From Eutreptiella sp. 'Long Island Sound 2002' (lineage: Eukaryota > Euglenozoa > Euglenophyceae > Eutreptiales > Eutreptiaceae): a stretch of DNA of 64,000 nt. Positions within the stretch are counted from its first letter, which is position 1. Each line of letters starts with the position of its first letter. Location of the stretch: positions 42,533,228 through 42,597,227 of the forward strand of contig OZ038378.1 of NCBI GenBank assembly GCA_964036045.1, read 5' to 3'. Below the pieces are notes generated by a model that had not been told where the DNA came from, did not search any database, and saw only the letters and a list, made by a program, of their open reading frames with translations. The translations under genes and the position numbers were made by a program. This document shows positions 24,695-59,526 of the stretch, one piece after another.

Positions 24695-25070
24695 AGCCCC
24701 GGCGTCCTCTGCCGCGGGCTTGGGTGACCCGCGCTTCCGGTAGCGCCGGGCCCGTCCTCCACTGCTGCCTGAATGGCAGGCCCCATCAGAGTCCTCCGCG
24801 GCGGAGCGGAGGTTGCATGCCTTTCAGCAGCGACGCTCACATATGGAGACCAGGTCCTCCATGTCACGTCCTCCTCTTCCCGAATGTCGTTCTTCTCTTC
24901 GGGCTTCAACTTCCGGAGTTCGCCATGCTCTTGAACGTCTCCGCTCTTCTATGGCTCCAATCTCCGGCGTGGTCTCCACCGAGTCCACAATACGCACCCG
25001 AGGCGTACTTGGGCAGGGCTCATAAGGGCCCAAGTCCCCGGGTCGGCGGTAGGTAGGGGCAGCAGGTAAG
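24695..25070 (-). other. 5' leader of element A
   Basis: About 376 bp between PBS and gag ATG, the usual place for packaging and dimerisation signals. No ORF in the sense direction is convincing. Confidence 0.5.
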
Positions 25071-25082
25071 CCTCTGCTACCA
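25071..25082 (-). other. primer-binding site of element A (tRNA-iMet)
   Basis: On the minus strand TGGTAGCAGAGG, complementary to the last 12 bases of a canonical eukaryotic initiator tRNA-Met including CCA. It abuts the inner end of the 5' LTR. Confidence 0.85.
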
Positions 25083-27441
25083 TAAAGAGGGTCCCTACCA
25101 GGACCGGCCCCCGCTGTGCCCCTTCCGCCTGTCACCCCTGCTGACTTGCTCCTGATCAACGACTGCATTTCTCAAAATCCTCAAAGTCCAGGGTCCAAAA
25201 TCCAAAATATAGAAAATAAAATCCTCCTTCAACCCTGAATAGCAACCAGATCCAACAAATACAGCAATAACCCAATTCACAATCCAAATCAGGCTGCGGG
25301 CTTCCGTTCAGCACATCGATGGTCTCACGATGGCGGGCATGTACAAGAATTGCACCAAGGAAGAAAGCCCCGAAATTGGCATATGAACACAAATAAAGCA
25401 AAGTTGGGGAAAGAGGTAAACATACACATTCACAGCCATAAACCCCTCATTCCCTGGACTCAAGACCTTCCCTTGACTCACCAACATATTGCCCTGAGCC
25501 AGGTCAAATGAGATGGCTGAATGCCATGTGTCACAAGTCACTACATAAACCCCAGAAATGTGTTCACTCCCAAGCCTATAAATCCTAGCCCAAAAAAGGG
25601 AGGTGGCGTGTCATGGCCTAGAGTGGCACTCAGGACCATGCCCTATCCTGACATAACCTTGGTTGGACTTGGGATCAAATGGGCTTGGAGAACTGCCCCA
25701 TGAAGATGACCTCACAACTTAACAAAATCAGGCACAACACACCATAGTGCCCAATATTCAATTATATACTCAAAAATGCATACGGCAAATACCCAAATGC
25801 TCCATGCATGTGTCAAACCGGATAGTAAAATACAAGGGTGCTATAGACCGAAGGTCCATGCCCAAGAATATCCCATCATTGGCTCCGAAACCTCTCCGGT
25901 TATGTACATGGCATGCTTCACAAGTCAGCTCATGAGTTTCAGACCTGAGGCCTCGTGTGCCAAGCCAAAGTGACCACGTGATCTGCCGTATGGTGAGGTG
26001 CAACACCGAAGCATATGCCAACATATAAGCAACATACCATAGTTCACAGATCTCTAGGCACTTTACTGTTAGCCGACCAGTTGAGCACATAAAACACAAA
26101 AATGAGCGAAAATTGAGGTCAGAAACATGAAAATATGTCCAAATACAAAGTTGTCATGATAGTATATCTCTACGCTCACCCATGATCTCCGCACATGGTT
26201 CGATATACAAATGATTGAAACCATTTGCGAACAATTCCCCGAGCTTGGATCCCCAATCGGGCGCATGGAGATACCTTCGCCACCCATATCTACATGCCCC
26301 ATGAAAATGGGAGTGCACTCATGGATCTCTTTGCCAAACATACCATGAGCAATACATACGCGGTAGACTTGGTCTAGCGCTTTGAATTCCACAATTGAGA
26401 CATGGGCAATACCCTTGTCACGTATGGCTCACCATCTCCTCGGCCACACAAAGATATATAACATGGGCGTGAGCATATCAAGACATATACCATGCATATA
26501 AAACATACCCCCAAAAGTGGCTCCCACCATGATATACCATGTCCCTCCATGGACATAACTTCACGTTGAAATTGCGTAGGAACCCAAAGAAAGTATCTAT
26601 GCAACCCCAACACTCATGCGGTACACTCGAAAGTCGCATTAAAATATTCGGTTGCACGGTCCAAGACTTATATATCACTTTATACCCTCTTGACCATTAT
26701 CCCTTGTTACACCAGGCATGTGTACACACCAAAGGCATTTGATGCTTCCTGAATTAAGTTGAGACCAAGGCGTTTGCAACGCAACCTTCCTTATTCTCTT
26801 TCCTCACACTCGCGCGTAGATATGGCCTTTCAAAGTGGTCCCACGATTCACTTTTGTTTCCCTTATATCTCCAAGTCAAAAGGGTGGCAAGTATAAGGGA
26901 AACCTGATTGGGGCATAGGGAAAAGAGTATGACCACTCGAAGAAGGTCAAATCAAGTGCGGCGATGTCGAAGTCGAAAATCCGATTTCGACATCGCGAAA
27001 AATTCAGATTAAAATTTCGAGTGCTTTTTTAGAAAATTGCGGAAGCAACGAACCCTTTACTGATGAAATCTGACCCTTTCATCAGGGTTTCCGCCAAAAT
27101 ATCTGGAAATAACAGTTAACCAATCGGTTAACGCAAAATCGCGAGCCAACTGACAGTCGCCGATACATTGACCATCAGAACGAAAGGCTGAAAAATTACG
27201 GAAACATTATGATAGTAAAACCCTGTTGATTCCTGATATTCTGATATATAAATCTCCGCTGGCGGCGCCTCGGTACTGAATATGGCCGCTCGTAGCCGGA
27301 ATGGCCAATCCTATCACACTATCACATCGGGTTAGTTCAGGTGGACGGGAGAGTATGATATCAGCCAATGGCGGCTTGCCGGCACATAGATACACACCCC
27401 AAGTGACCCCAAGATGGCCACGGGGGTCCGAACCGGCTTCA
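25083..27441 (-). repeat. 5' LTR of element A
   Basis: Collinear with 14263-16619, with scattered substitutions and a few indels. It carries the same inverted repeats (26962-26995 and 27115-27132) and TATA-like box. Transcription of A would start here and run towards lower coordinates. Confidence 0.95.
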
Positions 27442-27446
27442 CTGGT
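27442..27446. repeat. target-site duplication of element A (right)
   Basis: CTGGT, partner of 14258-14262. Confidence 0.85.
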
Positions 27447-31529: not shown

Positions 31530-34154
31530 ATGGAAATGACGGGGAGCCCTGTCCGCCGGATGTTCAGTGCTCCGTGGGACTCCGAGGGATATCATACTTG
31601 TTACCCTTCGGATGGTGCCGGCGCAGAGCCAGATTTCCCGGCGAGGCGATCACACAACGCCCCAAATCCTGAATTCGATCATGATGGAGAACGGGAAACG
31701 TTGCCGCGAAGGTCGGCAACAACAGGAGTCCCAAGGCATACCGAGCTCGGTATGTTGGGAGCGGAGGCAGGAAGGAGGGACGGTGACGGGACGGGCGACT
31801 CCGTGATGGGCGGAGGAGAGGAGCGGGGAGCTTCGGGAGGTCTGCCGCAGGATGGCCGGGACCGGGAAGAAGATGGTCGACATCCACACGAGGACGCCAA
31901 GGAAGTGGCGTGCGGGGACGGGGCGCGTGAAGATCACTGCCATTGCCGACATGTGGACTTCCTCTTCGGGAGGTATCCCTGGCCGGGCAAATATGCCAGT
32001 ATTCAAAGGATCGACAAGCTGGACGACACCACGGGTGGAATTCTTGAGGACCAGGCCATCTTCGACAACACTCTAAAGAGTATCCGATCACATCAAGAGG
32101 ACTACGAGGCCAAGCTGGAGACAATGTCGGTACAGCAGCAAGGAATGGTGGACAAAATGATCAAGTACCTGGAGAATGTCGAGGACAGGATGAAGAAGTT
32201 CGAGAGGGGTGCAGGAGTCCCGGCACCAGGTCCCGATCTACCACAGGATCGTGCCCCGGAATCTTTGGTGAGGCGGTTGATGACATTGAGGACAGCCGTC
32301 GAAGGAGTGGCGCCCATGGAGGGTCCCATGGAATCGGCCCCATACGGTCCGCCACGGGTTGACCCCTCATTGTTGAGGCACATCCCACTTTTCTCGGCCA
32401 GTGTCATGTTGGGAGAGAAGACGCCGGAAAAAGGCTCAGGGATTGGTACGCCCCATTGTGATACCCGTGAAAGAACAGTTGAGATTGACATGAGCAGCCC
32501 GCCAGCCGCTGAGACGTTCGATGCTTGTGCAGCGTATGAGCGCCGGGTTGCTGAAATGGACTCGGAAATACGTGGAGGATGAGGTGGGGAATCATGGGTG
32601 CAAGATCCGCGGTCGGGTATATGGGCCATGGTCGGTCCGAGCATGGAAGAAGACAAATCTGGACCGCGGGAAGACATGGAGATCCAAGGAGTTTACTCCC
32701 AATCCCCGGGCAACGGGAATGGTGGAAGTATCCGGCTTGGGGGCGTCATTGCTTCGAATGTTGGGGACACTGTACGCATCGAAGACCTCCGTGGTGTGAA
32801 AATACCCCATTACGACGCCAACCCCGCCAACTTGGACAATTTCATCCTAGATTAGAAAGACTTTGATGAGGAAGTTGTTGGTGAGATGCGGTTCGGATTG
32901 GATGCTTGAGACAAGTGGGCATGTCGTACTTTCCCACACAGTTTGGCCCCGGAGTTGAAGGCGGATTTGCGTGACGCAATTTGGGAGAAGAGGATCCGTA
33001 CGGAGGGGCAGCGTTTGGACTGGTTTGAGCAAGAAGAAAGGGTGGATACCCCCAACCAAAGGCTTGATGACTTTGAACGTGGGGAGCTGCGGTTGAGGGA
33101 GTGGAGGGGATATTATCGAAAGTACCGCCGACTTCTAAAGCAAGTTGAGGATTGGTCGGAATCGGGTGAGATTTGCCACCTCTTGCAGGATGTCCTTCCA
33201 GCCTATTGGAAGAAGCGGGTGGAAGACGAGGAGAAGAAGCGGGCAAAGAAACGTATGGCAGTACGCATCATGTCGCTGGAGGGGCAGCACCCGGGCATTA
33301 CGGAATATTTCTGACGGAACCTCGAAGCGCCGGAGCGGATGATCTCGTTGAAGAATTCCGTGTACATGGAGGTGTTTGATGAGACCGCGGGGGCACGTCT
33401 CCTTCAACTCAACAATGTCGAATGAAAACGCGGTTAAAAACTAAAATTGCAGATGATACCCACGCAAATGAGCCTGGACTCAATCATCCAGTACGAGAGC
33501 GTCGAATTGAAGCTCAACTGCAAAAATGAAGCGCATATTAAAGACCGTCACAATAATGGGAACCATGATGGCTGTGAAGATCCACATCATCGAGAGGTCC
33601 TAGATGATCGCGGCGGGAGTTCGGAATATGCCGTAAGCGAGAGTATGACCCGGGAAGATCATGAGGAAGCGCATTCCTTTGCGTTTGTGGCGCACAACAC
33701 GAAGGAGCATGGGTAAGACAAGTCGAAGTGGAGGAGAGCACCACCCAGTGGAGGAATGGGGAAACCGCCGCGGAGGATCGGCAATCCGCCGCTCTCCTTC
33801 AAGGAATACCGGCGGGAACATGACGGTTGCTGGATCTGTTATGGGAAGAACCTGCCACACAAACACGATCATAAGACGTGCAAGATCTACGCGGAGGACA
33901 AGAAGGCTTTTTTCCAAGCCGACCCCGAGAAGGTGCCCAAAGAGAAGCGTATAGAGGCTTGGAAGCGTGGGCAAAGTGCCTGTGGACGCTCGGGAGGACA
34001 AGGGCATGGCGGTGACCGCCGAATTCGACAAATCCAGGAAGTGGCTGACTCGTTAATGCGGGGCATGGAAGCGCTCCAGGCCGTGCAGAACGAGAGAAGT
34101 GCCCTATGGCCGGGTGATTCGCAGCAAGACGGGGCTGCGGTGGACCGAACTTAG
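31530..34154 (+). pseudogene. gag: C gag, copy 1, decayed homologue of A gag
   Basis: Aligns with A gag along its length. The first 350 codons are open: WDSEGY at the start, HCHCRHVDFLFGRYP, then a coiled coil and VDPSLLRHIPLFSASVMLGE. In-frame stops then appear at 32580 (TGA), 32853 (TAG), about 32908 (TGA), 33313 (TGA) and 33423 (TGA); two of these replace Trp codons of A. A 24-bp deletion near 33069 removes eight residues that copy 2 keeps. The zinc knuckle CWICYGKNLPHKHDHKTC has the same unusual spacing as in A. It ends in TAG followed in frame by protease. Confidence 0.85.
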
Positions 34155-34175
34155 AGAAGCCCCCACGGGAGTGGG
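34152..34175 (+). promoter_or_regulatory. gag UAG with downstream stem-loop, readthrough candidate (C copy 1)
   Basis: TAG at 34152-34154, 7-nt spacer, stem arms CCCAC (34162-34166) and GTGGG (34171-34175). Same layout as A. Confidence 0.55.
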
Positions 34176-34823
34176 ACACCAGAGGACTCTCCTCCGAAAA
34201 TCAGCGGAATCCAATCGAAGAAGGCATCTACGGTGCCGAAGAAGGTTCCGAAGGAGCCAAAGCCACTGAGTTCAACCAGTGCTAATCCATGGGACGCCCC
34301 GCGAAGGGAAGTACAAGTGGATACTGGCAGCTGGGACAAGAAGGTTGGAGAGACCACGGAGGGTCCCTTGGATGGGCAGAACCAACCCAAAATCCATGAG
34401 ATACGCGATCACACGTTGGATGTCCTTATGCACCCGTCCGTGCTAGAGTTGCATGCTGTGAGAGTCGTCCGTACACCACATGGCAATGAGCGGCAATTGC
34501 ACTCGAAGGTGCGGGTGATGTGTGGACGGAAGGAGGTGATCACGGATGCCTTGGTGGATACTGGGGCCCAGGTAAGCTTGGTGCAGAATGGACTGTTTCC
34601 GGACACATGTCTGAAGAGCAGTGACCGAGCAGTGCGCCTCAAGGTTGCAAACGGCGAGATCATGGGTGGAGGAGCCGGTGAGGCCGAACTCGGCCTGGAA
34701 ATTTGGGAGCCTGACCGATTGGATCGACCGGACTAAGCTAAACGCTTGCTGCTCCATGGAAAATTCTACGAGGCAAATCTCTCCGATTGGGATATCATAA
34801 TCGGCTATGATTTCATAGTCAGC
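34155..34823 (+). pseudogene. PR: C protease, 5' part (interrupted by satellite element)
   Basis: In frame with gag after the UAG. VTDALVDTGAQVSLV is the retropepsin active site, and DWDIIIGYDFIV is the distal segment. A TAA at 34734-34736 breaks the frame first. The gene is then cut at 34823 by the 9.55-kb element. After the element, codons resume at 44384 exactly where the A protease predicts. Confidence 0.85.
34817..34823. repeat. 7-bp target-site duplication (left) of satellite element
   Basis: AGTCAGC here and at 44377-44383. Counting one copy only, the flanking C protease codons line up without gap with those of element A, which supports a true target duplication. Confidence 0.85.
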
Positions 34824-34855
34824 CATATATCGCACGAGGTCGCCCCCCCCTACCT
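34824..34855 (+). repeat. left terminal inverted repeat
   Basis: Partner of 44345-44376. Just inside, CCCTACCT and AGGTAGAGGG form a local fold-back. Confidence 0.8.
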
Positions 34856-35054
34856 TGGAGGTAGAGGGGGGGTAGGGGGGGGTAGGGGGGGGGTGGGGCG
34901 GGGTAGGGGGGGGTGGGGGGGGGTAGGGGGGGGGTAGAGGGGGGTAGGGGGGGGTAGGGGGGGTGGGGGGGGGTAGGAGGGGGGAGGTAGGGGGGGGGGT
35001 AGGAGGGGGGAGGTAGGGGGGGGTCGAGAAGGTAGGGGGGGGTTTGGGGGGGAA
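34856..35054 (+). repeat. G-tract block (GTAGGGGGGG-like)
   Basis: Irregular repeats of GTAG plus 6-10 G, all G on the plus strand. Strong G-quadruplex potential. Similar blocks lie at 35404-35537 and 44265-44344. Confidence 0.9.
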
Positions 35055-35335
35055 GGTGGTGCACACACAAGGCGGAACACACAAAAGGCGGCCTGTTGCC
35101 ACCGCAGGAGTCTTGTCATTTAAGGGGCCACAGGCAAGGCGGTGCACAGAGAAGGCGGTGCACACACAAGGCGGAACACACAAAAGGCGGTCTGTGGCCA
35201 CCGCAGGAGTCTTGTTATTTAAGGGGCCACAGGCAAGGCGGTACACACAGAAGGGGGTGCACACACAAGGCAGAACACACAAAAGGCGGAACACACAAAA
35301 GGCGGTCTCTAGCCACTGCAGGAGTCATGTTATTT
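35055..35335 (+). repeat. 99-bp tandem repeat, about three copies
   Basis: The landmark GCACACACAAGG recurs at 35061, 35160 and 35259, exactly 99 bp apart. Each unit contains GCAGGAGTC and TTATTTA(A)GGGG. The third has a small internal duplication. The unit length is a multiple of three, so a frame (35044-35337) stays open, but no known protein is encoded. Confidence 0.9.
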
Positions 35336-35846
35336 AGGGGGGCTGCGGGGGCTGGCCCCCGCGTCGAGCGAAGCGAGCCGTCTGTCGAGCGAAGCGAGCC
35401 GAAGGTAGGGGGGGGAGGTAGGGGGGGGCAGGTAGGGGGGGGAGGTAGGGGGGGGGGTTAGCGGGGGGGGTAGGGGGGGGAAGGGGGGGGTAGGGGGGGG
35501 ATAGGGGGGGGTAGGGGGAGGTAGGGGGGGGGTAGGTTCAGGTTCAGGTTCAGGACGACCTGCCCGAGGCTCCAGCACAGCCGGAGGGGGACCCAGAAAA
35601 CGAGGGGCTCCCAACCGCCACAAGGCGGCTTACTCGGTCCCGCCTGGAAAGGTCGAAGCGGGCGGCCCGTGGCGGCACCCCGAGCCACCGGGGGCCGACA
35701 CTTGCCGAGTTTCGGGGGGGGGGGTCCGCATGTGGTGTGGGCTGGGGCGCGAGGGCTAGGGGGGCTCAACTGCGCAGGGGCGTCAGTGTGCCGCTGGCGT
35801 CGGCCTGGACGGTGTCGGTGAGGGTGCTGCCGGCAAGGCATAACAG
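35336..35846 (+). other. GC-rich spacer with hairpin, short repeats and unique DNA
   Basis: Contains a perfect hairpin GCGGGGG-CTGG-CCCCCGC (35346-35363), two copies of TCGAGCGAAGCGAGCCG, a G-tract block (35404-35537), three GGTTCA hexamers near 35535-35553, and about 290 bp of unique GC-rich DNA to the satellite. No convincing gene. Confidence 0.7.
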
Positions 35847-38800
35847 GGCGCAGACTGGGGCTGCGCAGGAGCGCAGACTGGGGCTGCGCAGGGGCGCAGA
35901 CTGGGGCTGCGCATGGGCGCAGGCTGGGGATGCGCAGGGGCGCAGACTGGGGCTGCGCAGGAGCGCAGACTGGGGCTGCGCCGGGGCGCAGACTGGGGCC
36001 GCGCAGGGGCGCAGACTGGGGCTGCGCAGGGGCGCAGACTGGGGCTGCGCATGGGCGCAGACTGGGGCTGCGCAGGGGCGCAGACTGGGGCTGCGCAGGA
36101 GCGCAGACTGGGGCTGCGCAGGGGCGCAGACTGGGGCTGCGCAGGGGCGCGGAATGGGGCCGTGCAGGGGCGCAGACTGGGGCTGCGCATGGGCGCAGAC
36201 TGGGGCTGCGCAGGGGCGCAGACTGGGGCTGCGCAGGTGCGCAGACTGGGGCTGCGCAGGGGCGCAGACTGGGGCTGCGCAGGGGCGCAGACTGGGGCTG
36301 CGCAGGGGCGCAGACTGGGGCTGCGCAGGGGCGCAGACTGGGGCTGCGCAGGAGCGCAGACTGGGGCTGCGCAGGAGCGCAGACAGGGGCTGCGCAGGGG
36401 CGCAGACTGGGGCTGCGCAGGCGCGCAGACTGGGGCTGCGCAGGCGCGCAGACTGGGGCTGCGCAGGGGCGCTGACTGGGGCTGCGCAGGGGCGCTGACT
36501 GGGGCTGCGCAGGGGCGCAGACTGGGGCTGCGCAGGGGCGCAGACTGGGGCTGCGCAGGGGCGCAGACTGGGGCTGCGCAGGGGCGCAGACTGGGGCTGC
36601 GCAGGGGCGCAGACTGGGGCTGCGCATGGGCGCAGACTGGGGCCGCGCAGGGGCGCAGACTGGGGCTGTGCAGGCGGGCAGACTGGGGCTGCGCAGGGGC
36701 GCAGACTGGGGCTGCGCAGGGGCGCAGACTGGGGCTGCGCAGGGGCGCAGACTGGGGCTGCGCAGGGGCGCAGACTGGGGCTGCGCAGGGGCGCAGACTG
36801 GGGCTGCGCATGAGCGCAGACTGGGGCTGCGCAGGGGCGCAGACTGGGGCTGCGCATGGGCGCAGACTGGGGCTGCGCAGGGGCGCAGACTGGGGCTGCA
36901 CAGGGGCGCAGACTGGGGCTGCGCAGAGGCGCAGACTGGGGCTGCGCAGGGGCGCAGACTGGGGCTGCGCATGCGCGCAGACTGGGGCTGCGCAGGGGCG
37001 CAGACTGGGGCTGCGCAGGGGCGCAGACTGGGGCTGCGCAGGGGCGCAGACTGGGGCTGCGCAGGAGCGCGGACTGGGGCTGCGCATGGGCGCAGACTGG
37101 AGCTGCGCAGGGGCGCAGACTGGGGCTGCACATGCGCGCAGACTGGGGCTGCGCATGCGCGCAGACTGGGGCTGCGCAGGGGCGCAGACTGGGGCTGCGC
37201 ATGGGCGCTGACTGGGGCTGCGCAAGGGCGCTGACTGGGGCTGCGCAGAGGCGCAGACTGGGGCTGCGCAGGGGCGCAGACTGGGGCTGCGCAGGGGCGC
37301 AGACTGGGGCTGCGCAGGGGCGCAGACTGGGGCTGCGCAGGGGCGCAGACTGGGGCTGCGCAGGGGCGCAGACTGGGGCTGCGCAGGGGCGCAGACTGGG
37401 GCTGCGCAGGGGCGCAGACTGGGGCTGCGCAGGGGCGCAGACTGGGGCTGCGCATGAGCGCAGACTGGGGCTGTGCAGGGGCGCAGACTGGGGCTGCGCA
37501 TGGGCGCAGACTGGGGCTGCGCAGTGGCACAGACTGGGGCTGTGCAGGGGCGCAGACTGGGGCTGCGCAGGGGCGCAGACTGGGGCTGCGCAGGGGCGCA
37601 GACTGGGGCTGCGCATGGGCGCAGACTGGGGCTGCGCAGGGGCGCAGACTGGAGCTGCGCAGGGGCGCAGACTGGGGCTGCGCATGCGCGCAGACTGGGG
37701 CTGCGCAGTGGCACAGACCGGGGCTGCACATGCGAGCAGACTGGGGCTGCGCAGGAGCGCAGACTGGGGCTGCGCAGGGGCGCAGACTGGGGCTGTGCAG
37801 GAGCGCAGACTGGGGCTGCGCAGGGGCGCAGACTGGGGCTGTGCAGGAGCGCAGACTGGGGCTGCGCAGGGGCGCAGACTGGGGCTGCGCAGGGGCGCAG
37901 ACTGGGGCTGCGCAGGGGCGCAGACTGGGGCTGTGCAGGAGCGCAGACTGGGGCTGCGCAGGGGCGCAGACCTGGGGCTGCGCAGGGGCGCAGACTGGGG
38001 CTGCGCAGGGGCGCAGACTGGGGCTGCGCAGGGGCGCAGACTGGGGCTGCGCATGCGCGCAGACTGGGGCTGCGCATGGGCGCAGACTGGGGCTGCGCAG
38101 GGGGGCAGACTGGGGCTGCGCAGGGGCGCAGAGTGGGGCTGCGCAGGGGCGCAGACTGGGGCTGCGCAGGGGCGCAGACTAGAGCTGCGCATGAGCGCAG
38201 ACTGGGGCTGCGCAGGGGCGCAGACTGGGGCTGCGCATGGGCGCAGACTGGGGCTGCGCAGGGGCGCAGACTGGGGCTGCGCAGGGGCGCAGACTGGAGC
38301 TGCGCAGGGGCGCAGACTGGGGCTGCGCATGCGCGCAGACTGGGGCTGCGCAGTGGCACAGACCGGGGCTGCACATGCGAGCAGACTGGGGCTGCGCAGG
38401 AGCGCAGACTGGGGCTGCGCAGGGGCGCAGACTGGGGCTGTGCAGGAGCGCAGACTGGGGCTGCGCAGGGGCGCAGACTGGGGCTGTGCAGGAGCGCAGA
38501 CTGGGGCTGCGCAGGGGCGCAGACTGGGACTGCTCATGGGCGCAGACTGGGGCTGCGCAGGGGCGCAGACTGGGGCTGCGCAGGAGCGCAGACTGGGGCT
38601 GCGCAGGGGCGCAGACTGGGGCTGCGCAGGGGCGCAGACTGGGGCTGCGCAGGGGCGCAGACTGGGGCTGCGCAGGGGCGCAGACTGGGGCTGCGCATGC
38701 GCGCAGACTGGGGCTGCGCATGGGCGCAGACTGGGGCTGCGCAGGGGGGCAGACTGGGGCTGCGCAGGGGCGCAGACTGGGGCTGCACAGGGGCGCAGAC

Positions 38801-41800
38801 TGGGGCTGCGCAGGGGCGCAGACTAGAGCTGCGCATGAGCGCAGACTGGGGCTGCGCAGGGGCGCAGACTGGGGCTGCGCATGGGCGCAGACTGGGGCTG
38901 CGCAGGGGCGCAGACCGGGGCTGCGCAGGGGCGCAGACTGGGGCTGCGCAGAGGCGCAGACTGGGGCCGCGCAGGGGCGCAGACTGGGGCTGCGCATGCG
39001 CGCAGACTGGGGCTGCGCAGGGGCGCAGACTGGGGCTGCGCAGGGGCGCAGACTGGGGCTGCGCAGGGGCGCAGACTGGGGCTGCGCAGGAGCGCAGACT
39101 GGGGCTGCGCATGGGCGCAGACTGGAGCTGCGCAGGGGCGCAGACTGGGGCTGCACATGCGCGCAGACTGGGGCTGCGCATGCGCGCAGACTGGGGCTGC
39201 GCAGGGGCGCAGACTGGGGCTGCGCATGGGCGCTGACTGGGGCTGCGCAAGGGCGCTGACTGGGGCTGCGCAGAGGCGCAGACTGGGGCTGTGCAGGGGC
39301 GCAGACTGGGGCTGCGCAGGGGCGCAGACTGGGGCTGCGCAGGGGCGCAGACTGGGGCTGCGCAGGGGCGCAGACTGGGGCTGCGCAGGGGCGCAGACTG
39401 GGGCTGCGCAGGGGCGCAGACTGGGGCTGCGCAGGGGCGCAGACTGGGGCTGCGCAGGGGCGCAGACTGGGGCTGCGCATGAGCGCAGACTGGGGCTGTG
39501 CAGGGGCGCAGACTGGGGCTGCGCATGGGCGCAGACTGGGGCTGCGCAGTGGCGCAGACTGGGGCTGTGCAGGGGCGCAGACTGGGGCTGCGCAGGGGCG
39601 CAGACTGGGGCTGCGCAGGGGCGCAGACTGGGGCTGCGCATGGGCGCAGACTGGGGCTGCGCAGGGGCGCAGACTGGAGCTGCGCAGGGGCGCAGACTGG
39701 GGCTGCGCATGCGCGCAGACTGGGGCTGCGCAGTGGCACAGACCGGGGCTGCACATGCGAGCAGACTGGGGCTGCGCAGGAGCGCAGACTGGGGCTGCGC
39801 AGGGGCGCAGACTGGGGCTGTGCAGGAGCGCAGACTGGGGCTGCGCAGGGGCGCAGACTGGGGCTGTGCAGGAGCGCAGACTGGGGCTGCGCAGGGGCGC
39901 AGACTGGGACTGCTCATGGGCGCAGACTGGGGCTGCGCAGGGGCGCAGACTGGGGCTGTGCAGGAGCGCAGACTGGGGCTGCGCAGGGGCGCAGACTGGG
40001 GCTGCGCAGGGGCGCAGACTGGGGCTGCGCAAGGGCGCAGACTGGGGCTGCGCAGGGGCGCAGACTGGAGCTGCGCATGCGCGCAGACTGGGGCTGCGCA
40101 TGGGCGCAGACTGGGGCTGCGCAGGGGGGCAGACTGGGGCTGCGCAGGGGCGCAGAGTGGGGCTGCGGAGGGGCGCAGACTGGGGCTGCGCAGGGGCGCA
40201 GACTAGAGCTGCGCATGAGCGCAGACTGGGGCTGCGCAGGGGCGCACACTGGGGCTGCGCATGGGCGCAGACTGGGGCTGCGCAGGGGCGCAGACTGGGG
40301 CTGCGCAGGGGCGCAGACTGGAGCTGCGCAGGGGCGCAGACTGGGGCTGCGCATGCGCGCAGACTGGGGCTGCGCAGTGGCACAGACCGGGGCTGCACAT
40401 GCGAGCAGACTGGGGCTGCGCAGGAGCGCAGACTGGGGCTGCGCAGGGGCGCAGACTGGGGCTGTGCAGGAGCGCAGACTGGGGCTGCGCAGGGGCGCAG
40501 ACTGGGGCTGTGCAGGAGCGCAGACTGGGGCTGCGCAGGGGCGCAGACTGGGACTGCTCATGGGCGCAGACTGGGGCTGCGCAGGGGCGCAGACTGGGGC
40601 TGCGCAGGAGCGCAGACTGGGGCTGCGCAGGGGCGCAGACTGGGGCTGCGCAGGGGCGCAGACTGGGGCTGCGCAGGGGCGCAGACTGGGGCTGCGCAGG
40701 GGCGCAGACTGGGGCTGCGCATGCGCGCAGACTGGGGCTGCGCATGGGCGCAGACTGGGGCTGCGCAGGGGGGCAGACTGGGGCTGCGCAGGGGCGCAGA
40801 CCCGGGCTGCACAGGGGCGCAGACTGGGGCTGCGCAGGGGCGCAGACTAGAGCTGCGCATGAGCGCAGACTGGGGCTGCGCAGGGGCGCAGACTGGGGCT
40901 GCGCATGGGCGCAGACTTGGGCTGCGCAGGGGCGCAGACTGGGGCTGCGCAGGGGCGCAGACTGGGGCTGCGCAGGGGCGCAGACCGGGGCTGCGCAGGG
41001 GCGCAGACTAGGGCTGCGCATGCGCGCAGACTGGGGCTGCGCATGAGCGCAGACTGGGGCTGCGCAGGGGCGCAGACTGGGGCTGCGCATGGGCGCAGAC
41101 TGGGGCTGCGCAGGGGCGCAGACTGGGGCTGTGCAGGGGCGCAGACTGGGGCTGCGCAGGGGCGGAGACTCGGGCTGCGCAGGGGCGCAGACTTGGGCTG
41201 CGCAGGGGCGCAGACTGGGGCTGCGCAGGGGCGCAGACTGGGGCTGCGCAGGGGCGCAGACTGGGGCTGCGCATGCGCGCAGACTTGGGCTGCGCAGTGG
41301 CGCAGACTGGGGCTGCACATGCGCGCAGACTGGGGCTGTGCAGGGGCGCAGACTGGGGCTGCGCAGGGGCGCAGACTCGGGCTGCGCAGGGGCGCAGACT
41401 GGGGCTGCGCAGGGGCGCAGACTGGGGCTGCGCATGGGCGCAGACTGGGGCTGTGCATGGGCGCAGACTGGGGCTGCGCAGGGGCGCAGACTGGGGCTGC
41501 GCATGCGCGCAGACTGGGGCTGCGCAGTGGCGCAGACTGGGGCTGCACATGCGCGCAGACTGGGGCTGCGCAGGGGCGCAGACTGGGGCTGCGCAAGAGC
41601 GCAGACTGGGGCTGCGCAGGGGCACAGACCGGGGGTGCGCAGGGGCGCAGACTGGGGCTGCGCAGGGGCGCAGACTGGGGCTGTGCAGGGGCGCAGACTG
41701 GGGCTGCGCAGGGGAGCAGACTGGGGCTGCGCAGGGGCGCAGACCGGGGCTGCGCAGGGGCGCAGACTGGGGCTGCGCATGGGCGCAGACTGGGGCTGCG

Positions 41801-43445
41801 CAGGGGCGCAGACTGGGGCTGCGCATGGGCGCAGACTGGGGCTGCGCAGGGGCGCAGACTGGGGCTGCGCAAGAGCGCAGACTGGGGCTGCGCAGGGGCA
41901 CAGACCGGGGGTGCGCAGGGGCGCAGACTGGGGCTGCGCAGGGGCGCAGACTGGGGCTGTGCAGGGGCGCAGACTGGGGCTGCGCAGGGGAGCAGACTGG
42001 GGCTGCGCAGGGGCGCAGACCGGGGCTGCGCAGGGGCGCAGACTGGGGCTGCGCATGGGCGTAGACTGGGGCCGCGCAGGGGCGCACACTGGGGCTGCGC
42101 AGGGGCGCAGTCTGGGGCTGCGCAGGGGCGCAGACTGGGGCTGCGCAGGGGCGCAGACTGGGGCTGTGCAGGGGCGCAGACTGGGGCTGCGCAGGGGCGC
42201 AGACTGGGGCTGCGCAGGGGCGCAGACCGGGGCTGCGTAGGGGCGCAGACTGGGGCTGCGCATGGGCGTAGACTGGGGCCGCGCAGGGGCGCACACTGGG
42301 GCTGCGCAGGGGCGCATGGGCGCAGACTGGGGCTGCGCATGGGCGCAGACTGGGGCTGCGCAGGGGCGCAGACTGGGGCTGCGCAAGGGCGCAGACTGGG
42401 GCTGCGCAGGGGCGCAGACTGGGGCTGCGCAGGGGCGCAGACTGGGGCTGCGCATGGGCGCAGACTGGGGCTGCGCAGGGGCGCAGACTGGGGCTCCGCA
42501 GGGGCGCAGACTGGGGCTGCGCAGGGGCGCAGACTGGGGCTGCGCAGGGGCGCAGACTGGGGCTGCGCATGGGCGCGGACTGGGGCTGCGCAGGAGCGCA
42601 TACTGGGGCTGCGCAGGGGCGCAGACTGGGGCTGCGCAGGGGCGCAGACTGGGGCTGCGCAGGAGCGCAGACTGGGGCTCCGCAGGGGCGCAGACTGGGG
42701 TTGCGCATGGGCGCAGACTGGGGCTGCGCATGGGCGCAGACTTGGGCTGCGCATGGGCGCAGACTGGGGCTGCGCAGGGGCGCAGACTGGGGCTGCGCAG
42801 GGGCGCAGACTGGGGCTGCGCATCGGCGCAGACTGGGGCTGCGCAGGGGCGCAGACTGGGGCTGCGCATGGGCGCAGACTGGGGCTGCGCAGGGGCGCAG
42901 ACTGGGGCTGCGCAGGGGCGCAGACTGGGGCTGCGCAGGGGCGCAGACTGGGGCTGCGCATGGGCGCAGACTGGGGCTGCGCAGGGGCGCAGGCTGGGGC
43001 TGCGCATGGGCGCAGACTGGGGTTGCGCAGGGGCGCAGACTGGGGCTGCGCATGGGCGCTGACTGGGGCTGCGCATGGGCGCAGACTGGGGCTGCGCAGG
43101 GGCGCAGACTGGAACTGCGCGGGGGCGCAGACTGGGGCTGCGCAGGGGCGCAGACTGGGGCTGCGCAGGGGCGCAGACTGGGGCTGCGCAGGGGCGCAGA
43201 CTGGGGCTGCGCAGGGGCGCAGACTGGGGCTGCGCATGGGCACAGACTGGGGCTGCGTAGGGGCGCAGACTGGGGCTGCGCAGGGGCGCAGACTGGGGCT
43301 GCGCATGCGCGCAGACTGGGGCTGCGCAGGGGCGCAGACTGGGGCTGCGCATGCGCGCAGACTGGGGCTGCGCAGGGGCGCAGACTGGGGCTGCGCAGGG
43401 GCGCAGACTGGGGCTGCGCAGGGGCGCAGACTGGGGCTGCGCAGG
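35847..43445 (+). repeat. 23-bp satellite array, about 330 monomers
   Basis: The monomer is CTGCGCAGGGGCGCAG plus ACTGGGG. CTGCGC and GCGCAG pair to make a 6-bp stem with an AGGG loop in every monomer. Common variants are GCATGGGCGC, GCAGGAGCGC and GCATGCGCGC. Since 23 is not a multiple of three and no frame has a stop, all six frames stay open for thousands of bases and give a 23-residue periodic pseudo-protein (69 bp = three monomers). Higher-order repeats of 12, 28 and 88 monomers are visible. Confidence 0.98.
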
Positions 43446-43590
43446 AGGGGGGGGGGGGGGGGCGCCTCACCACAGGCTTTTGGCGACCCCCCCAGGCGCC
43501 GGGCTCCTCACCAGGAGGTTATTGGGGCCCGGGCCAGCGTGTGCGCGAGGGCCTCACCACAGGCTCTTGGCCCCGCGTTGTCGGGGGGGG
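43446..43590 (+). repeat. ~145-bp module, first copy
   Basis: G-run followed by GGCGCCTCACCACAGG and TTGGCGACCCCCCCAGG, ending in GTTGTC and a G-run. Inside, CCTCACCACAGGCT occurs twice. Near-identical to 43854-43998. Confidence 0.9.
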
Positions 43591-43853
43591 CTGCGCAGGG
43601 CCGCAGACTGGGGCTGTGCAGGAGCGCAGACTGGGGCTGCGCAGGAGCGCAGACTGGGGCTGCGCAGGGGCGCAGACTGGGGCTGCGCAGGAGCGCAGAC
43701 TGGGGCTGCGCAGGGGCGCAGACTGGGGCTGCGCATGGGCGCAGACTGGGGCTGCGCAGGAGCGCAGACTGGGGCTGCGCAGGGGCGCAGACTGGGGCTG
43801 CGCAGGGGCGCAGACTGGGGCTGCGCAGGGGCGCAGACTGGGGCTGCGCAGGA
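43591..43853 (+). repeat. 23-bp satellite, second short array (~11 monomers)
   Basis: Same monomer and phase logic as the main array, lying between the two 145-bp modules. Confidence 0.95.
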
Positions 43854-43998
43854 GGGGGGGGGGGGCGCCTCACCACAGGCTTTTGGCGACCCCCCCAGGC
43901 GCCGGGCTCCGGGCCAGGAGGTTATTGGGGCCCGGGCCAGCGTGTGCGCGAGGGCCTCACCACAGGCTTTTGGCCCTGCGTTGTCGGGGGGGGGGCGC
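43854..43998 (+). repeat. ~145-bp module, second copy
   Basis: Partner of 43446-43590. The pattern satellite-module-satellite-module suggests a larger duplicated unit. Confidence 0.9.
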
Positions 43999-44344
43999 GC
44001 CGGGGGGCCGTTCAGGCTGGTTCCCCCCGGGGCTGGCTCAGTTGTGCATGGCCACAGGCCAGCAGAGGCTGTTTCTTACGGGGCTCATGTCGGTTCATGG
44101 CCCAGGGCGCACCGGGGAGGGTCCCAACTCTCGCCCCCGGAGGTTCTTGCTGGCTGTCCCTGGGGGGGGGGGGGGGGGGGGGCATGCGGTTTCGAGTGTT
44201 TTGGGAGGCGAGCTACCTCCCATGGCAAAACCCAGGCGGCCTCTTCGCGCTGGGGAACCTCCGCTGTAGGGGGGGGGGGGTAGGGGGGGGTAGGGGGGGT
44301 CAGGGGGGGTAGGGGGGGGTAGGGGGGGGGTAGGTAGGGGGGGG
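43999..44344 (+). other. unique GC-rich DNA and terminal G-tract block
   Basis: About 265 bp without repeat or gene, containing a 20-G run near 44163-44182, then GTAGGGG-type repeats up to the right TIR. Confidence 0.7.
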
Positions 44345-44376
44345 AGGTAGGGGGGGGCGACTTCGTGCATACTATC
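44345..44376 (-). repeat. right terminal inverted repeat
   Basis: Reverse complement of 34824-34855 at about 26 of 32 positions. Confidence 0.8.
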
Positions 44377-44383
44377 AGTCAGC
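44377..44383. repeat. 7-bp target-site duplication (right) of satellite element
   Basis: AGTCAGC, partner of 34817-34823. Confidence 0.85.
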
Positions 44384-47300
44384 AATTCAGCCGGAGCATT
44401 GCCACATCGTGCCACACTCATTGGTGAGGCAAACGAGAGGCTTCCATTGCTATCGACCAATTATGCCCCTTGTGGATCCCATTGGACCGGAGATGAGGAG
44501 GAGAAAATTGTTCGTGCCGTGAAAGCAGCGGCAATTAAGTCCAAGTGTGGCGATGGAGAGCACCCTCAGGAGTACGGTCTTTCCCGGGATGCTTATTGTC
44601 ACATGATGGAAGGTCAAGGTATGGACACACAATCAACGGATGTCTTTGCATCAAAAGAGGCTCCTAAGTTGCAGAAGTGCGCGAGCTACTGGCACAAGGG
44701 TGACTCGGCGTGGAACAAACACTGGGGCGCAGGAGAATGGGGCCATCAGTATGTACACGGAGCCCAACGGGATTCCGAATGAATCGTGAACAAAATTATC
44801 GCCGATAGAGCCAAAGGAGTCTTGGTGTTGACTGGACTGGGCTCAGGGGACGCCCGTGGCGAAGTTCTAAGATCCAAGATCAATTCCATCGCCTTGAACC
44901 AATTTGTGTTTGCGCCCGATGAGGAGATATTCATGGACGCTACGGGAACCTCTTTGCCGTCACCGGGACAGGCATGGTCAACCCACGCGTATTATGTGGA
45001 CGGTGCACAATGCCATCCCACGGGCGATGAGGCTTTAATCCGGAGGATACAAGCCGTGTGCATGAGGGTCATGTTCGAGGAGAGCAACGACCCCAAAGTG
45101 GAAGTCATGACCTTGTCAACTGACGAGATTGATCATGTTGTCCACTACATGAAGGATGGGATGCATGACCGTGTGGCAGCCACGCAGGCAAGAAGCCGGG
45201 TCAAATCTCCTCATTGATGGAACGATCAAAATTTGATTACGGGAAAATTCACCAAGAACGAGTTCGTGGCGAGGGTGATGGACCACATGGCCGATCAAGA
45301 TGAGCCTGTGGGTTCCAACCCACCCACGTGGAATTTTCCACGCTCAGGTATCGGATTAAAGCCTGACACCCCATTTAATATCCAAGAATTCAGAAAATTA
45401 TCGGCGGGGCGGCAGACCCTCGATGTTGAAGAGGGTATGACGGATGAGGAAATGTCAGAGGGCGATCCGGAGGAAAGCTATACGGCCATTCGGTCAGTGG
45501 TGACCGTGCCGACAGCTGCGGCCGAAGAAGCAAAGGAAAGTCCAAGACTGGATGAGCTGCAGAAAATATTGGTGAAGGGTTCTCCACTGTCCCTCAGCGG
45601 TGTGGCCAACAAAAATCCACCGAATCGAGGTCGATTCGGCACCGCAAGGATTAAATTGAAGCTCAACCCCAAAGTATTTTGGCATCGAGAATATCAGCTT
45701 CCAGGTGAGCGGGCAGAGGCCATGAAAAAGTTGTTGAAGGAATTCATCGAGCGCGGATAAATAGAACCTTCGGACAGTGAGTGGGCAAGCCCAGCATTTA
45801 TCCTTTCGAAGAAGGAGAAGGGCGAATGGCGGTCAGTGGTTGATTATGGAGGGTTGAATGAGCAAACGGAGCATGATTCGTACTCTCTCCCCTTAATCGA
45901 AACTATCCTACAAAAACAGGCCCGAAAGCGCATCTTCACGGTGTTAGACCTCAAACATGGTTATCACCAGATGCCGCTGCATGTGGACTCCAGGGCGTGT
46001 ACGGCGATGAGTACGCCACTCGGCCCCATGCAATGGAAAGTGGTGCCAATGGGAGCCAAGAATGGCAACGCAGTGTTCGAGCGCATGATGGAGGATCTGC
46101 TGGGACTTGTGCGGGATTGCGCCGACCGGTTTGTGGATGACATCATTATCGGGTCTGGCGAGGAGGACATGTCGGAGGATGAGTTGATCAAGGCCCACGA
46201 GAAAGACTTGAGACGAGTGCTCGACGTCCTTGATTGCCAGCAAATGGTATGCAAGCTGACGAAGGCATATTTATTTGTGACGGAAGTTGAGTTTGCGGGA
46301 CACGTGTTTGGTCATGGGCAACGCAGGCCGATGCCGGGCAAGTTGGCCGCCTTGAATCATTGGGAGCGACCCACCACCATCAGCGAGTTGCGTTCGTTCA
46401 TGGGATTCTGCAATTATTATTCGGGTTGCGTACGAATCTATGCCGAACTCTCGGGACCATTGCACAAAATGCTGCAGGTTGGGAATTTTGATGGGCGCAA
46501 GAAGAGCAAGAAAAAGCTAGCCTGGACAACGGAGGCGACAGAACCGTTCGAGACGCTCGGGAGAACTCTCCTGGGAAAGTTGGAGGGATTCGTTATCAAT
46601 CCGGACAAAGGATTTGTGCTCCGCACCAATGCATCTGCTTATGCCGTGGGAGCTGTCCTGGAGTAAGTCCGAGAGGATGGTTCCCATGTCCCAGTGGCCT
46701 TTTCGAGTAGAGTTTTGGCGGAGGGTCAACGCCGCACTTGGACTGCAAGAGAAAAGGAGACATATGCCATCATCTGTGCCTTGCGCAAGTGGTCCGGGCA
46801 TATTGGTTTGCAACCCATTGTCGTGTGCACCGACCATCAAAGTTTGCAGAGTTGGCACAAGGAGCACGTCGACACCCCCTCGGGTCTGGCAGCCCAACGC
46901 GCCCGGTGGCACGAGACGCTAGCCAAGTTTGACTTGAGCGTAGTGTATTTGCCCGGGAAGGACGACACTGTGGCCGATTGCCTCAGTCGTTGGGCATACC
47001 TAGCTGGGAAAGCATGGATGGTAATCTCTATGCATGGCGACGCCGAGGAGACTGCAGAGGCTAGGTGTATCATTGAGGGGGAGCGTCTGCTTGAAGAAGG
47101 CAAGCCCAAATGCCTTGTGGTGATGGGATCCTGCGCGGAGCTCGCCTAAGTCCGAGATGCCAAGATACAAGCGATGGGGGCGCAAATGAAGGAGGAGGAC
47201 ATGGTACGAGCCATTGAAGGAGTGCAATCGGTCTTGAGGGAGGATTGGTCCGAGGATTACGCAAATTCGGACCATTGGCTGAAGTATTGGAATGCGGTGA

Positions 47301-47572
47301 GTGCGCGATCGGACGATGAATGGCCGGAGGGATTGACAGAAGACGGGGACAAGCTCTTTCTTAAGGACCAGCTCTTGGTTGCGAAAAAACCGGCTGGAGG
47401 ACTTGATTGACCATTCGCACAACGCTCAATTGATGCATCCGGGACGGGATAAATTGCAGAAGGATTTGGAGTCGAGGTTTTTGTTCCTTTCGGATTATTA
47501 CGCAGTTTTGAACCGGTATTGCAAGGCCTGTGCGTTCTGCAGGGCCACCAAACATCCCAACCGGTCAACTGA
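44384..47572 (+). pseudogene. pol: C pol, 3' of the insertion: protease end, RT, RNase H, integrase start
   Basis: Homologous to A pol throughout. The protease tail GALPHRATL is followed by the linker DVFASKEAPKLQKC and KIIADRAKGVLVLTGLG. RT has VVDYGGLNEQTEHDSYSLPL, VLDLKHGYHQMPL and the catalytic FVDDII at 46130-46147. RNase H has RTNASAYAVGAVLE (the catalytic Asp of TDAS replaced by Asn) and AREKETYAIICALRKW. The integrase zinc region has HNAQLMHPGRDK and CKACAFC. In-frame stops at about 44780, 45215, 45758, 46664 and 47147, plus a frameshift near 47390, cut it into seven ORFs. Homology stops at about 47572, before the integrase catalytic core. Confidence 0.9.
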
Positions 47573-53336: not shown

Positions 53337-53874
53337 ATCCAAGACCTTCTCCAAGGGCAGGCTTGAAACCATCTCTCGACCCTTCTGGATCTGGAAGATG
53401 GCTTCCAGCAGATGCCCCTGTTGGAGGAGTGCAGGCATTTGACCGCCTTTTGCACCCCGCCGGGACATTTGCGTGGAAGGTCCTGCCCATGGGGGTTCTG
53501 TTGGGGCACAGGCTTCTCAGCGCCTTGTGAGCTGGTGTGTTGGCCGCCTTAAACCCCATATCAGAGCCTACATAGATGACATTTTAGTAGGCACGCGACC
53601 CATTTGTAGTGGCAAAGGGAAACTCCTCGATTCGTAAGCCATAATGGAACATTATAAACTCGTGCGCAAATCGTTCGAGGTATTGAAGGAGTGCCACCTG
53701 CAACTTAAAAAGGAAAAATATTTCCTTTTCTACACTCAGGTGAAGTAAGTTGGCCACATTTTGCATGAAGGTGAACGCTCTCCGGCACCTGGGAAGGTCG
53801 GCGCGGTGTCCCGAGTGGTCTGATGATATGATTCGGACGCCAAAGCAGATGAAGAGTTTCCTTGGCATCTGCAA
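53337..53874 (+). pseudogene. RT: B reverse transcriptase, copy 2, 5'-truncated
   Basis: Begins at the IQDLLQGQ block and carries LLDLEDGFQQMP and the intact catalytic YIDDILVG (YIDD 53569-53580). Nonsense changes remain (TGA after LLQGQA; TAG and TAA after the active site). Confidence 0.75.
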
Positions 53875-54523
53875 TTGGTATTCCCGTCACTGGTGGCGCC
53901 GCTCATGGATTTACTTGCCGAGAAGTTTAATTACCATCCTGAGAAACGCACCAGTAAAGTCCCAGCGCATAAGCAAACCATCAGTTGGACTCATCTGATG
54001 CGTGAGAATTTCGAGAAGATCAAAACTTCCCTGTGTGAGGCTTGCAGCCTGTACATACCCAGTGACCAAGGCGAGTTCGCCATCCATACGGATGCGTCAG
54101 ACCACGGCATTGGCGCTGTCCTGGAACAGAAGGATGACCAGGGAAACTGGCGTCCCTGTGCTTTTTTCAGTCCAAAACTCGACGGCAGCCTAAAATACAA
54201 CGCTGACAGAAAATGTCTTGGGTTATATGGGCAAGAGAGCATGGTCGGTGAGGGAAAAGGAGACTTACGCCCTGGTGTCCTGTCTTTTGAAGTTCAAAAG
54301 CTGGATATCAGGGCGCCACATCACTGTTTTCACTGACCATGACTCCCTGGAATCATGGTACAAAGAGGAGCTTTGTACCATGGCTGGTCTATTCGGATAT
54401 TGCGGCCGGTGGCATGAATTCCTCTCCCGGTATAATATTGTAGTTGTCTACGAACAGAGAGTGGAAAACGATGCCGCCGACGTGATGTCCCGCCTGGGCC
54501 TACCCAGCCAGATTGGGGGATGA
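53875..54523 (+). pseudogene. RH: B RNase H, copy 2
   Basis: ORF 53875-54336 has HTDASDHGIGAVLEQ and runs 40 residues further than in copy 1. ORF 54218-54523 holds the later blocks (REKETYALVSCLLKFKSW, ENDAADVMSR) in another frame, so the frameshift here lies further downstream than in copy 1. Confidence 0.75.
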
Positions 54524-54711
54524 CGCGACCTTTCACGGTTCGGACGCCGATTTGGAAGGGGTAACCTAGTGGGAGGCCTCTGAGCGCAAAAAGGAGCAAC
54601 AGCTCATCGCAGGTAACCAGTATCCCCGCAAAATTCTGGAGGTGAGAGCCCCTAAGGGACGTCCCTCATCACCTGACATGCAGGAACAGCGGGAGCGCGA
54701 TAGACTTACTG

Positions 54712-55854: not shown

Positions 55855-55857
55855 GGT

Positions 55858-56365
55858 CTCAATGACCTCCCTGGGGTAGTAGCACCCTACTCGCCCCACC
55901 GGCTGGTGTTTGGTCGTGACCCCTCAGGGATGGGCAACCTACCCTCTGGTAGTGGACAGTGAGGGTTGTGAGGACGCCACCCAGTTTTGTAAGAGGGTGG
56001 CTGCGGAAAGGGAGTTAGTACAAGAAAAGCTGGAGGCAATACACGAAAAACAGTTGGACAAGTTCCTAAAGGAACACCCTCCCTCTGTTTTCGTTGCCGC
56101 CGACCGGGTATGGGTCCAGAATCGAGATGAAGAACGGGAAAAGCTCGGTAGAGTATGGCAGGGACCCGCTGAGATCATTGACAAGATCTCTGACTCCGTT
56201 TACCGGGTTAACCACAATGGGGTGGAGCAGGACTCATCAGTCAAACGGCTGAAGCCCTTTGTGAAGCTCCATGACGGATGTCAGCCCCCACTGCATTACT
56301 ACGCGGAGCGTCGTGAGATTCACGACGATTCGTACGTGGTGGAGCGGGTGGACAAGCATGAATAG
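55858..56365 (+). pseudogene. INT: B integrase GP(Y/F)-like tail, copy 2 (empty site for A)
   Basis: Uninterrupted version of the site where A inserted in copy 1 (CCGGCTGGTGTTTGG near 55902-55916). Contains RVWQGPAEIIDKISD and SVKRLKPFV; ends in TAG as in copy 1. Confidence 0.8.
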
Positions 56366-56465
56366 CGTCGAACAGGAGCCAATGGCCGCGAAAAACGCGC
56401 CCGCCAACTTCTCCTGGTGCCAAACCTTGGTGGTATGTTAGATTTCGCGATCATGCCCGCCTGGA

Positions 56466-56681
56466 ATGGCACCCCGCCGCCAGTTTTCTCCACATAATCA
56501 ACAGTACTTGATGAAATGTAATAGGCAGCATGGACTCCACGTGGACCTCAGTCACTTTAATGTGCAAAGGGTACAGGTGAAAAATTTCCATTTAAATGGC
56601 GAGTGGGAGTCAACCTGCTTTGCTCTCGGCCGCCTGAGCTTGAGCCTGAGCCTCAGTCTGAGCCTCAGGGGGGGTCCTTGA
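56466..56681 (+). CDS. small ORF downstream of B integrase, copy 2
   Basis: Same start as 28005 (MAPRRQFSP), but a base change in the run near 56580 shifts the frame into a Leu/Ser repeat. The alternative frame 56603-56803 restores the PEPEPQSEPQ version. No function recognised. Confidence 0.25.
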   Translation: MAPRRQFSPHNQQYLMKCNRQHGLHVDLSHFNVQRVQVKNFHLNGEWESTCFALGRLSLSLSLSLSLRGGP

Positions 56682-59483: not shown

Positions 59484-59526
59484 GATGTCTTCTTTGCAAG
59501 CAGCAAGTAAACCCGTCAAGCCTATT
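59484..59526 (+). repeat. 43-bp direct repeat, right flank of the 813-bp insertion
   Basis: Identical to 58628-58670; the LTR continues directly after it. Confidence 0.95.

Follow-up and report, generated by a model that had tools for sequence, protein, structure and literature searches.

How can a long satellite array come to lie between the ends of a transposon? This question is raised by a 64,000-bp stretch of DNA (the window) from Eutreptiella sp. 'Long Island Sound 2002' (assembly GCA_964036045.1, contig OZ038378.1, positions 42,533,228 to 42,597,227), in which an insert bounded by terminal inverted repeats (TIRs) and filled with a 23-bp satellite interrupts the protease frame of a retrotransposon. 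An earlier reading of the letters (the sequence-only reading) took the satellite as the body of one TIR element. Our analysis showed that the insert is two nested mobile elements, not a single unit. The locus very probably has three layers: a Ty3/gypsy-type long terminal repeat (LTR) element called B, a TIR element in its protease, and a satellite-bearing derivative of a long interspersed nuclear element (LINE) in a G-tract of the TIR element, this derivative having presumably been copied in trans by LINE-type machinery.

Two nested elements in the protease frame

The outer TIR insertion (34824-44376, 9,553 bp) has AGTCAGC on both sides. This heptamer alone is uninformative, with 16 occurrences in the window versus 9.4 expected. 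The two TIRs agree with each other at 26 of 32 outer positions and at 0 of the 2 positions that follow. At up to 3 mismatches the end pattern TATGCACGAAGTCGCCCCCCCC was found in the window only at these two places, which is weak evidence alone (17 of 100 shuffles gave at least two matches). The pattern is nevertheless strong because the search of the 2.28-Gb genome, which the sequence-only reading had proposed, gave 744 + 780 = 1,524 matches versus 19 + 13 = 32 for the reversed control, and copies with 7-bp duplications and one with an 8-bp duplication exist among them.

When the insert and one duplication were removed, the short flanks of B aligned without gap over the junction to the protease of element A, another LTR retrotransposon at this locus. 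Paralogues of the host site were searched genome-wide, giving 795 candidates, 40 of which were scored: this site, its tandem duplicate and 38 others. These 38 match only as far as the insertion point. All six that were read have an empty site, aligned over 312-314 columns, five without a gap column and one with 1. No transposase was seen in the non-satellite parts of the insert when translations were inspected by eye, and Pfam reported 0 families at E <= 0.1 in three open reading frames (ORFs) of the insert. Rfam gave 0 hits on the insert, and the TIR and satellite patterns gave 0 hits in viral contigs.

These results agree with most of what the sequence-only reading had described, namely 32-bp imperfect TIRs, a 7-bp duplication, a protease frame gapless against element A (to which the empty sites add support), an insert without transposase, and a satellite share of about 80%. 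The 23-bp array reported by Tandem Repeats Finder (TRF) at 35846-43852 covers ~84% of the TIR insert, with some 340 units. Coding capacity in the array was considered and rejected, as the long open frames that it has on both strands are expected from a 23-bp repeat.

What did not hold is that the satellite forms the body of the TIR element. The array lies in a separate retroelement (Table 1), and 15 of 20 family members with both ends are 0.1-1.5 kb long. The region 11691-53336 is tandemly duplicated at 53337-64000 and onward past the window end. Copy 2 carries the same TIR element at window-coordinates 64132-79093, just past the window, with the same duplication AGTCAGC, and the collinear flanks of copies 1 and 2 are 95.4-97.2% identical. 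After excision of 35541-44266 from copy 1, the remaining end aligned with the module, G-tract and TIR of copy 2, that is, with a normal TIR-family end. The satellite is therefore a later arrival in the G-tract. The TIR element minus its cargo is ~0.82 kb.

A single satellite-filled TIR transposon, whose body grew out of a short repeat in its interior, would explain why the array is bounded by intact TIRs and a clean 7-bp duplication, and TIR elements whose internal tandem repeats give rise to satellites are known from the relevant passages on Tetris (PMC4079207). We consider this explanation extremely improbable. Three other fully read loci (L051, L054, L055), whose printed flanks are not these TIRs, have this array bounded by these same ends; copy 2 of the same insertion holds other cargo, with no 23-bp array by TRF; and short TIR members have 99-bp repeats in place of the 23-bp array.

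Table 1. Features of the nested insertion in the window, and complete array copies found elsewhere in the genome
Feature	Position	Strand	Remarks
Host element B, protease-side part	32778..34816	+	Ty3/gypsy-type; broken at 34816/34817; aligns to element A 21405-23488 up to 34819
Target site duplication AGTCAGC, left, 7 bp	34817..34823	+	
TIR, CATAT-type end	34824..34855	+	26/32 match; both end types found in 20/30 family loci
G-tract (GGTAGGGGGG)n of TIR element	34860..35056	+	TRF; also in family members
99-bp repeats, typical of TIR family	35052..35306	+	Also in other members
GCGGGGGCTGGCCCCCGC / CGAGCGAAGCGAGCC module, TIR-family typical	35340..35402	+	Also in copy 2, L017, L019, L031, L034, L037
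Second G-tract of TIR element, left of nested insertion	35403..35535	+	
Probable target duplication of nested element, left, GTA(G)9TAG	35521..35535	+	
Nested non-autonomous non-LTR retroelement, 8,730 bp	35536..44265	-	3' end 35536, 5' end 44265
3' module with (GGTTCA)n tail	35536..35848	-	98% identical to LINE L056 3' end
Main 23-bp array	35846..43438	-	+ strand consensus CAGACTGGGGCTGCGCAGGGGCG
Partial duplicate of 5' module, between two arrays	43434..43600	-	167 columns, 95.8% to L056
Short second 23-bp array	43598..43852	-	
5' module	43841..44265	-	95.6% identical to LINE L056 5' end
Second G-tract of TIR element, right of nested insertion	44266..44344	+	
Probable target duplication of nested element, right, GTA(G)12TAG	44266..44283	+	
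TIR, GATAG-type end	44345..44376	-	26/32 match
Target site duplication AGTCAGC, right, 7 bp	44377..44383	+	
Element B, continuation (reverse transcriptase, start of RNase H)	44384..47562	+	44885-47562 aligns to element A 18226-20899; RVT_1 in 45761-46666
Complete array copy L055			8,436 bp; duplication ATCCCTACCGCAGG; non-repeat sequence
Complete array copy L051			7,824 bp; duplication GTGGGAGGGGCTAGG; in tandem repeats
Complete array copy L054			5,181 bp; duplication GGGTGGTGTTGGTGG; in tandem repeats

Dispersed copies of the satellite element and its LINE ends

The nested element appears to be composed of the 5' end of a LINE (~425 bp), a 23-bp minisatellite (~340 units) and the 3' end of the same LINE (~313 bp, with the GGTTCA tail). 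A genome search with the 3' end (query 35545-35860) gave 444 first-look candidates, of which 40 were scored, at 96-100% identity. The 12 best-scoring of the 444, this locus included, were fetched. In 12/12 the similarity ends at the GGTTCA tail and the flanks differ, although similar GGGGCA repeats flank L051, L052 and L060. The 3' module leads directly into the 23-bp array in 5/12 loci; in 4/12 a longer 3' part precedes the array, the two being joined at two or more further breakpoints; and in 3/12 the LINE body follows the 3' module in place of the array. For the 5' module, 342 first-look candidates were found genome-wide and 40 were scored, at 96-100%.

Four complete array copies, the window element and L055, L051 and L054, lie on four contigs with the same two end modules, and the far ends of all four (44265 in the window) terminate in GGGGAACCTCCGC(T/G). 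The duplications of L055, L051 and L054, taken from printed flanks, are 14-15 bp long, and their last GG overlaps the tail. A complete LINE copy, L056 (8,711 bp), has the duplication TGTGTAGGTGGG. Target duplications were thus found in 5/5 copies with both ends: L055 and L056 in non-repeat sequence, two in tandem repeats and the window copy in a G-run. When 3'- and 5'-module matches are paired, L052 (~10.8 kb) and L057 (~10.2 kb) emerge as additional candidate copies. Long GC-rich arrays are difficult to assemble and our analysis is based on the assembly alone, which might let satellite be joined artificially to transposon ends; with complete copies on four contigs sharing both end modules, and with tandem copies that agree at both outer junctions, such an artefact is hardly credible.

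L056 resembles the window element at both ends (98.1% over the 3' 313 bp and 95.6% over the 5' ~425 bp), and L055, L051 and L054 are 96.2-98.1% identical to it at the 3' end and 97.2-97.4% at the 5' end. L061, a related LINE copy, contains a stop-free frame of 1,870 aa, a 1,456-aa part of which matches Exo_endo_phos (E=1.3e-6, above the Pfam curated cut-off). Reverse transcriptase-like (GNQGD, YSDD) and RNase H-like motifs in L061 were recognised by eye only. A protein search with the C-terminal part of LINE copy L058 gave 10 relatives, all lacking precomputed Pfam domains; when seven were scanned with Pfam, one had a weak Exo_endo_phos match (1.1e-4, under the cut-off). Pfam on 9 ORFs, 8 from cargo and one from L058, found RNase H in one (E=3.3e-13) and a sub-threshold zinc ribbon in another.

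In mouse L1, monomers form a tandem promoter array. By analogy, the window element might be no new composite but a LINE with an internal deletion, its 5' array being the tandem promoter native to that LINE. Its array indeed adjoins the LINE 5' module, part of which is itself duplicated within the array region. On the other side, L056 has no 23-bp unit at <=4 substitutions; as it is the single complete LINE copy read, array-bearing ones are possible. We regard this explanation as unlikely, but give it some weight.

The order of variant units was also compared between loci. L051 and L055 lie on different contigs (C22 and C6). The first 65 units past their 3' modules agree in type at 63 positions, counted from printed strings, and the longest common subsequence (LCS) of their non-consensus units is 37 versus a shuffled maximum of 20. 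Among five loci, the variant-unit LCS of 9/10 pairs was above the maximum of 200 shuffles and that of one pair was equal to it. Because this order is common to different loci, the arrays were copied as such rather than grown locally. Massive expansion after insertion, which the sequence-only reading had offered as one possibility, is thus unlikely as the main cause, although remodelling is evident, and duplications were found inside the window array at lags of 28 and 88 units. The picture is one in which long arrays would be copied and then remodelled. In the main window array (35846-43438), C-to-T changes at unit position 14 (23/280 units) and G-to-A changes at position 15 (11/280) fit CpG decay by methylation; the commoner changes at positions 18 and 20 do not.

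Dispersed copies with their own duplications, conserved unit order and LINE-like ends all argue for satellite seeding by retrotransposition of a LINE derivative. The earlier suggestion of a route for seeding satellites at new loci stands to this extent, but the carrier is a non-LTR retroelement and the TIR element is only its landing site. In the mechanism that we propose, a satellite-bearing RNA would be transcribed from a promoter in the LINE 5' region, and the 3' end of this RNA intermediate would be recognised in trans by the endonuclease and reverse transcriptase of the LINE. Target-primed reverse transcription at a presumed nicked strand would then place a copy of the array at another site, often one rich in G, and generate a 14-15-bp duplication there. 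This would parallel the use of L1 by hominoid SVA.

Several observations weigh against this proposal. The inner duplication in the window lies in a G-run and differs in G number (9 vs 12), so that chance is possible at this locus alone. L051 and L054 have their duplications in a tandem-repeat setting, where matches of such length are less telling. Between L051 and the window copy (L053) the LCS of 16 only equals the shuffled maximum of 16. Over the whole array, 236 unit pairs of the window copy and L055 were aligned, 180 of them identical, leaving 102 and 91 units unaligned; the score was 348 versus 266-298 for 6 shuffles, which indicates heavy turnover with partial collinearity. As for the LINE protein, the 1,456-aa part of the L061 frame gave no reverse transcriptase match in Pfam, a LINE profile gave no match to the reverse transcriptase of the LTR element, and a PDB sequence search gave nothing. 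The predicted structure of the LINE reverse transcriptase region was unusable, with a mean predicted local distance difference test score (pLDDT) of 36.5.

The landing sites were examined at the same 12 loci. Ten of the 12 3' junctions lie, as judged by eye, in G-rich tandem repeats whose G-rich strand runs into the tail; those of L055 and L056 do not. The mean G fraction was 0.54 in the 60 bp preceding the tail versus 0.38 farther out, where the stretches contain the same arrays and runs of N. In 11 long or unclosed TIR members (copy 2 counted), the cargo sits in the C/G-tract in 8 and in 99-bp repeats in 3; this tally leaves out L014 (run of N), L016 (place undecided), and L027 and L039 (degenerate). 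Both tallies were made by eye and post hoc on best-scoring or first-listed copies, and they give an apparent preference for varied G-rich repeats as target. Non-LTR elements specific for repeats are familiar, SART and TRAS being those of telomeric repeats. Others, in the published excerpts that describe them, use rRNA genes or microsatellites; a repeated target is the likeness, but the repeats used here are varied and G-rich with no fixed site.

The TIR family and the history of the locus

From a list of 100 TIR loci the first 30, which all lie on contig C1, were fetched, and 8 were extended. Both ends were found in 20/30, and 10 had no second end in the fetched stretch. The 20 members with both ends are 110-14,962 bp long, 15 of them 110-1,483 bp. 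Their 7-bp duplications are perfect in 12/20, which represent 11 independent events (copies 1 and 2 are one event), and one more matches at 6/7; the duplication of L013 is perfect over 8 bp, and the remaining 6/20 match at 5/7 or less. The two ends of the element differ constantly from one another (GATAGTATGCACG and CATATATCGCACG). As the end pattern at 3 mismatches also admits the other end type, the matches correspond to ~760-1,500 elements. In their printed stretches, short members contain C/G-tracts and 99-bp-type repeats, except for the 110-bp L036, which lacks the 99-bp type, and none contains the 23-bp array. The GCGGGGGCTGGCCCCCGC / CGAGCGAAGCGAGCC module is present in the short members whose inner part was displayed. 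The TIR family is real, high-copy and apparently non-autonomous, and makes 7-bp duplications.

According to the sequence-only reading, the 7-bp duplication fits no obvious superfamily. In fact two groups permit this length, Galileo of the P superfamily, for which the passages on duplications give 7 bp with the consensus GTAGTAC (PMC2775673), and Dada, with 6-7 bp in the corresponding account (PMC3706591); beyond this length neither group fits. GTAGTAC matches 0/11 of the 7-bp duplications read here, a comparison by duplication and not by transposase. Dada inserts in multicopy small-RNA genes as described there, whereas the window TIR copy, the only one compared in this respect, lies in a retrotransposon protease. 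Assignment of a superfamily from duplication length alone was therefore rejected.

Some members show further features. In L025, near 1478-1501, two TIR elements seem to lie end against end, separated by hardly any DNA. Long open frames without Pfam domains lie in two TIR members near the insertion point (L041:1750-3021 and L033:2079-3020) and are possibly LINE ORF1 proteins. The cargos of L026 and L028 share the start TAGCGGAGTCCCC, which is similar to the 5' terminus of the satellite element (AGCGGAGGTTCCCC); they may represent a related LINE family that occupies tracts of this type.

The host locus is a nest of Ty3/gypsy-type LTR elements in which element A sits within element B. Element A (14262-27442) is an LTR retrotransposon with pol on the minus strand and 2.36-kb LTRs that are 95.7% identical. 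Its Pfam matches are strong for reverse transcriptase and RNase H and under the curated cut-offs for protease, integrase and chromodomain, the aspartyl protease match (5.2e-6) only slightly so. The junction of A in B has a 5-bp overlap, which fits a 5-bp target duplication, and A is absent from the tandem copy. Element B gave no match to phages. Recombination between LTRs might explain the tandem duplication.

The cargo of copy 2 (L009:757 to L010:4618) measures ~13.9 kb, with three TTTGAGG repeats at one end and 212-bp tandem repeats toward the other. It sits in a 99-bp repeat with the 15-bp duplication TTAAGGGGCCACAGG and resembles another non-LTR element. Pfam found 0 families in 7 ORFs of this cargo, and TRF reported 212-bp repeats and other DNA in the copy 2 insertion and not the 23-bp array.

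In the order of events that we propose, the TIR element would have entered B, the region would then have been duplicated in tandem, and element A and the satellite retroelement would finally have entered copy 1 while other cargo entered copy 2. The last step could alternatively be ectopic gene conversion from other members of the family, by which cargo would have been swapped among TIR members after insertion with no separate retrotranspositions here. Hundreds of family ends exist, the members read have TIRs, G-tracts and 99-bp repeats in common, and copies 1 and 2 are unlike in cargo despite flanks ~96% identical. The two cargos, however, occupy different places of the TIR element, the G-tract in copy 1 and the 99-bp repeat in copy 2, each with its own apparent duplication. 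Different positions and own duplications favour two fresh insertions, and conversion is very unlikely.

Comparison with SVA and other mobile arrays

SVA elements end in a poly-A tail, unlike the (GGTTCA)n tail of the window element. The array also differs from that of SVA in making up 86-92% of this retroelement, at 4.5-8 kb. Our element resembles SVA in plan; the likeness is by body plan only, and membership of SVA is not claimed. The relevant passages of PMC4432496 describe SVA and LAVA as non-autonomous non-LTR elements with a central tandem array, presumably mobilised in trans with a LINE, with unit order partly conserved and elsewhere remodelled, as found here. Copying of long arrays followed by remodelling is described there for SVA. 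The differences, on the same passages, are that the most frequent ancestral units of SVA measure 39-40 bp versus 23 bp here, and that the SVA array is flanked by Alu-like and SINE-R parts whereas both flanks here derive from the 5' and 3' ends of one LINE. The same source calls composites with a variable number of tandem repeats (VNTR) specific to hominoid primates.

Helentron arrays of Crassostrea gigas are likewise tandem arrays dispersed genome-wide by a mobile element. In the part of PMC7492417 concerned, monomers are mostly 160-180 bp, 56% of arrays have 2-3 monomers and the longest has 29.3; the carriers are Helentron-type DNA transposons, whereas the carrier here is a retroelement. The foldback transposon Tetris/TIR-220 is similar in being a TIR element with internal tandem repeats tied to satellite arrays, but its repeats lie within the TIRs and complete copies have 8-9-bp duplications as described (PMC4079207), while the satellite here is in a separate retroelement. 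Among the titles listed in an open-licence library, under the terms used, for satellite dispersal by retrotransposition and for VNTR composites outside primates, there was no such element.

How long satellite arrays move to new places is an open question. Arrays of 4.5-8 kb at separate loci, with clean ends and target duplications, offer a testable route for satellite seeding, and the SVA body plan appears to have originated a second time in this element. Tentatively, and with rather more doubt than confidence, we suggest an independently evolved SVA-like element with a nearly pure minisatellite RNA. Its arrays of ~190-350 repeats would be planted by LINE machinery, preferably in G-rich tandem repeats or the G-tracts of TIR elements, from where a DNA transposase could carry them further.

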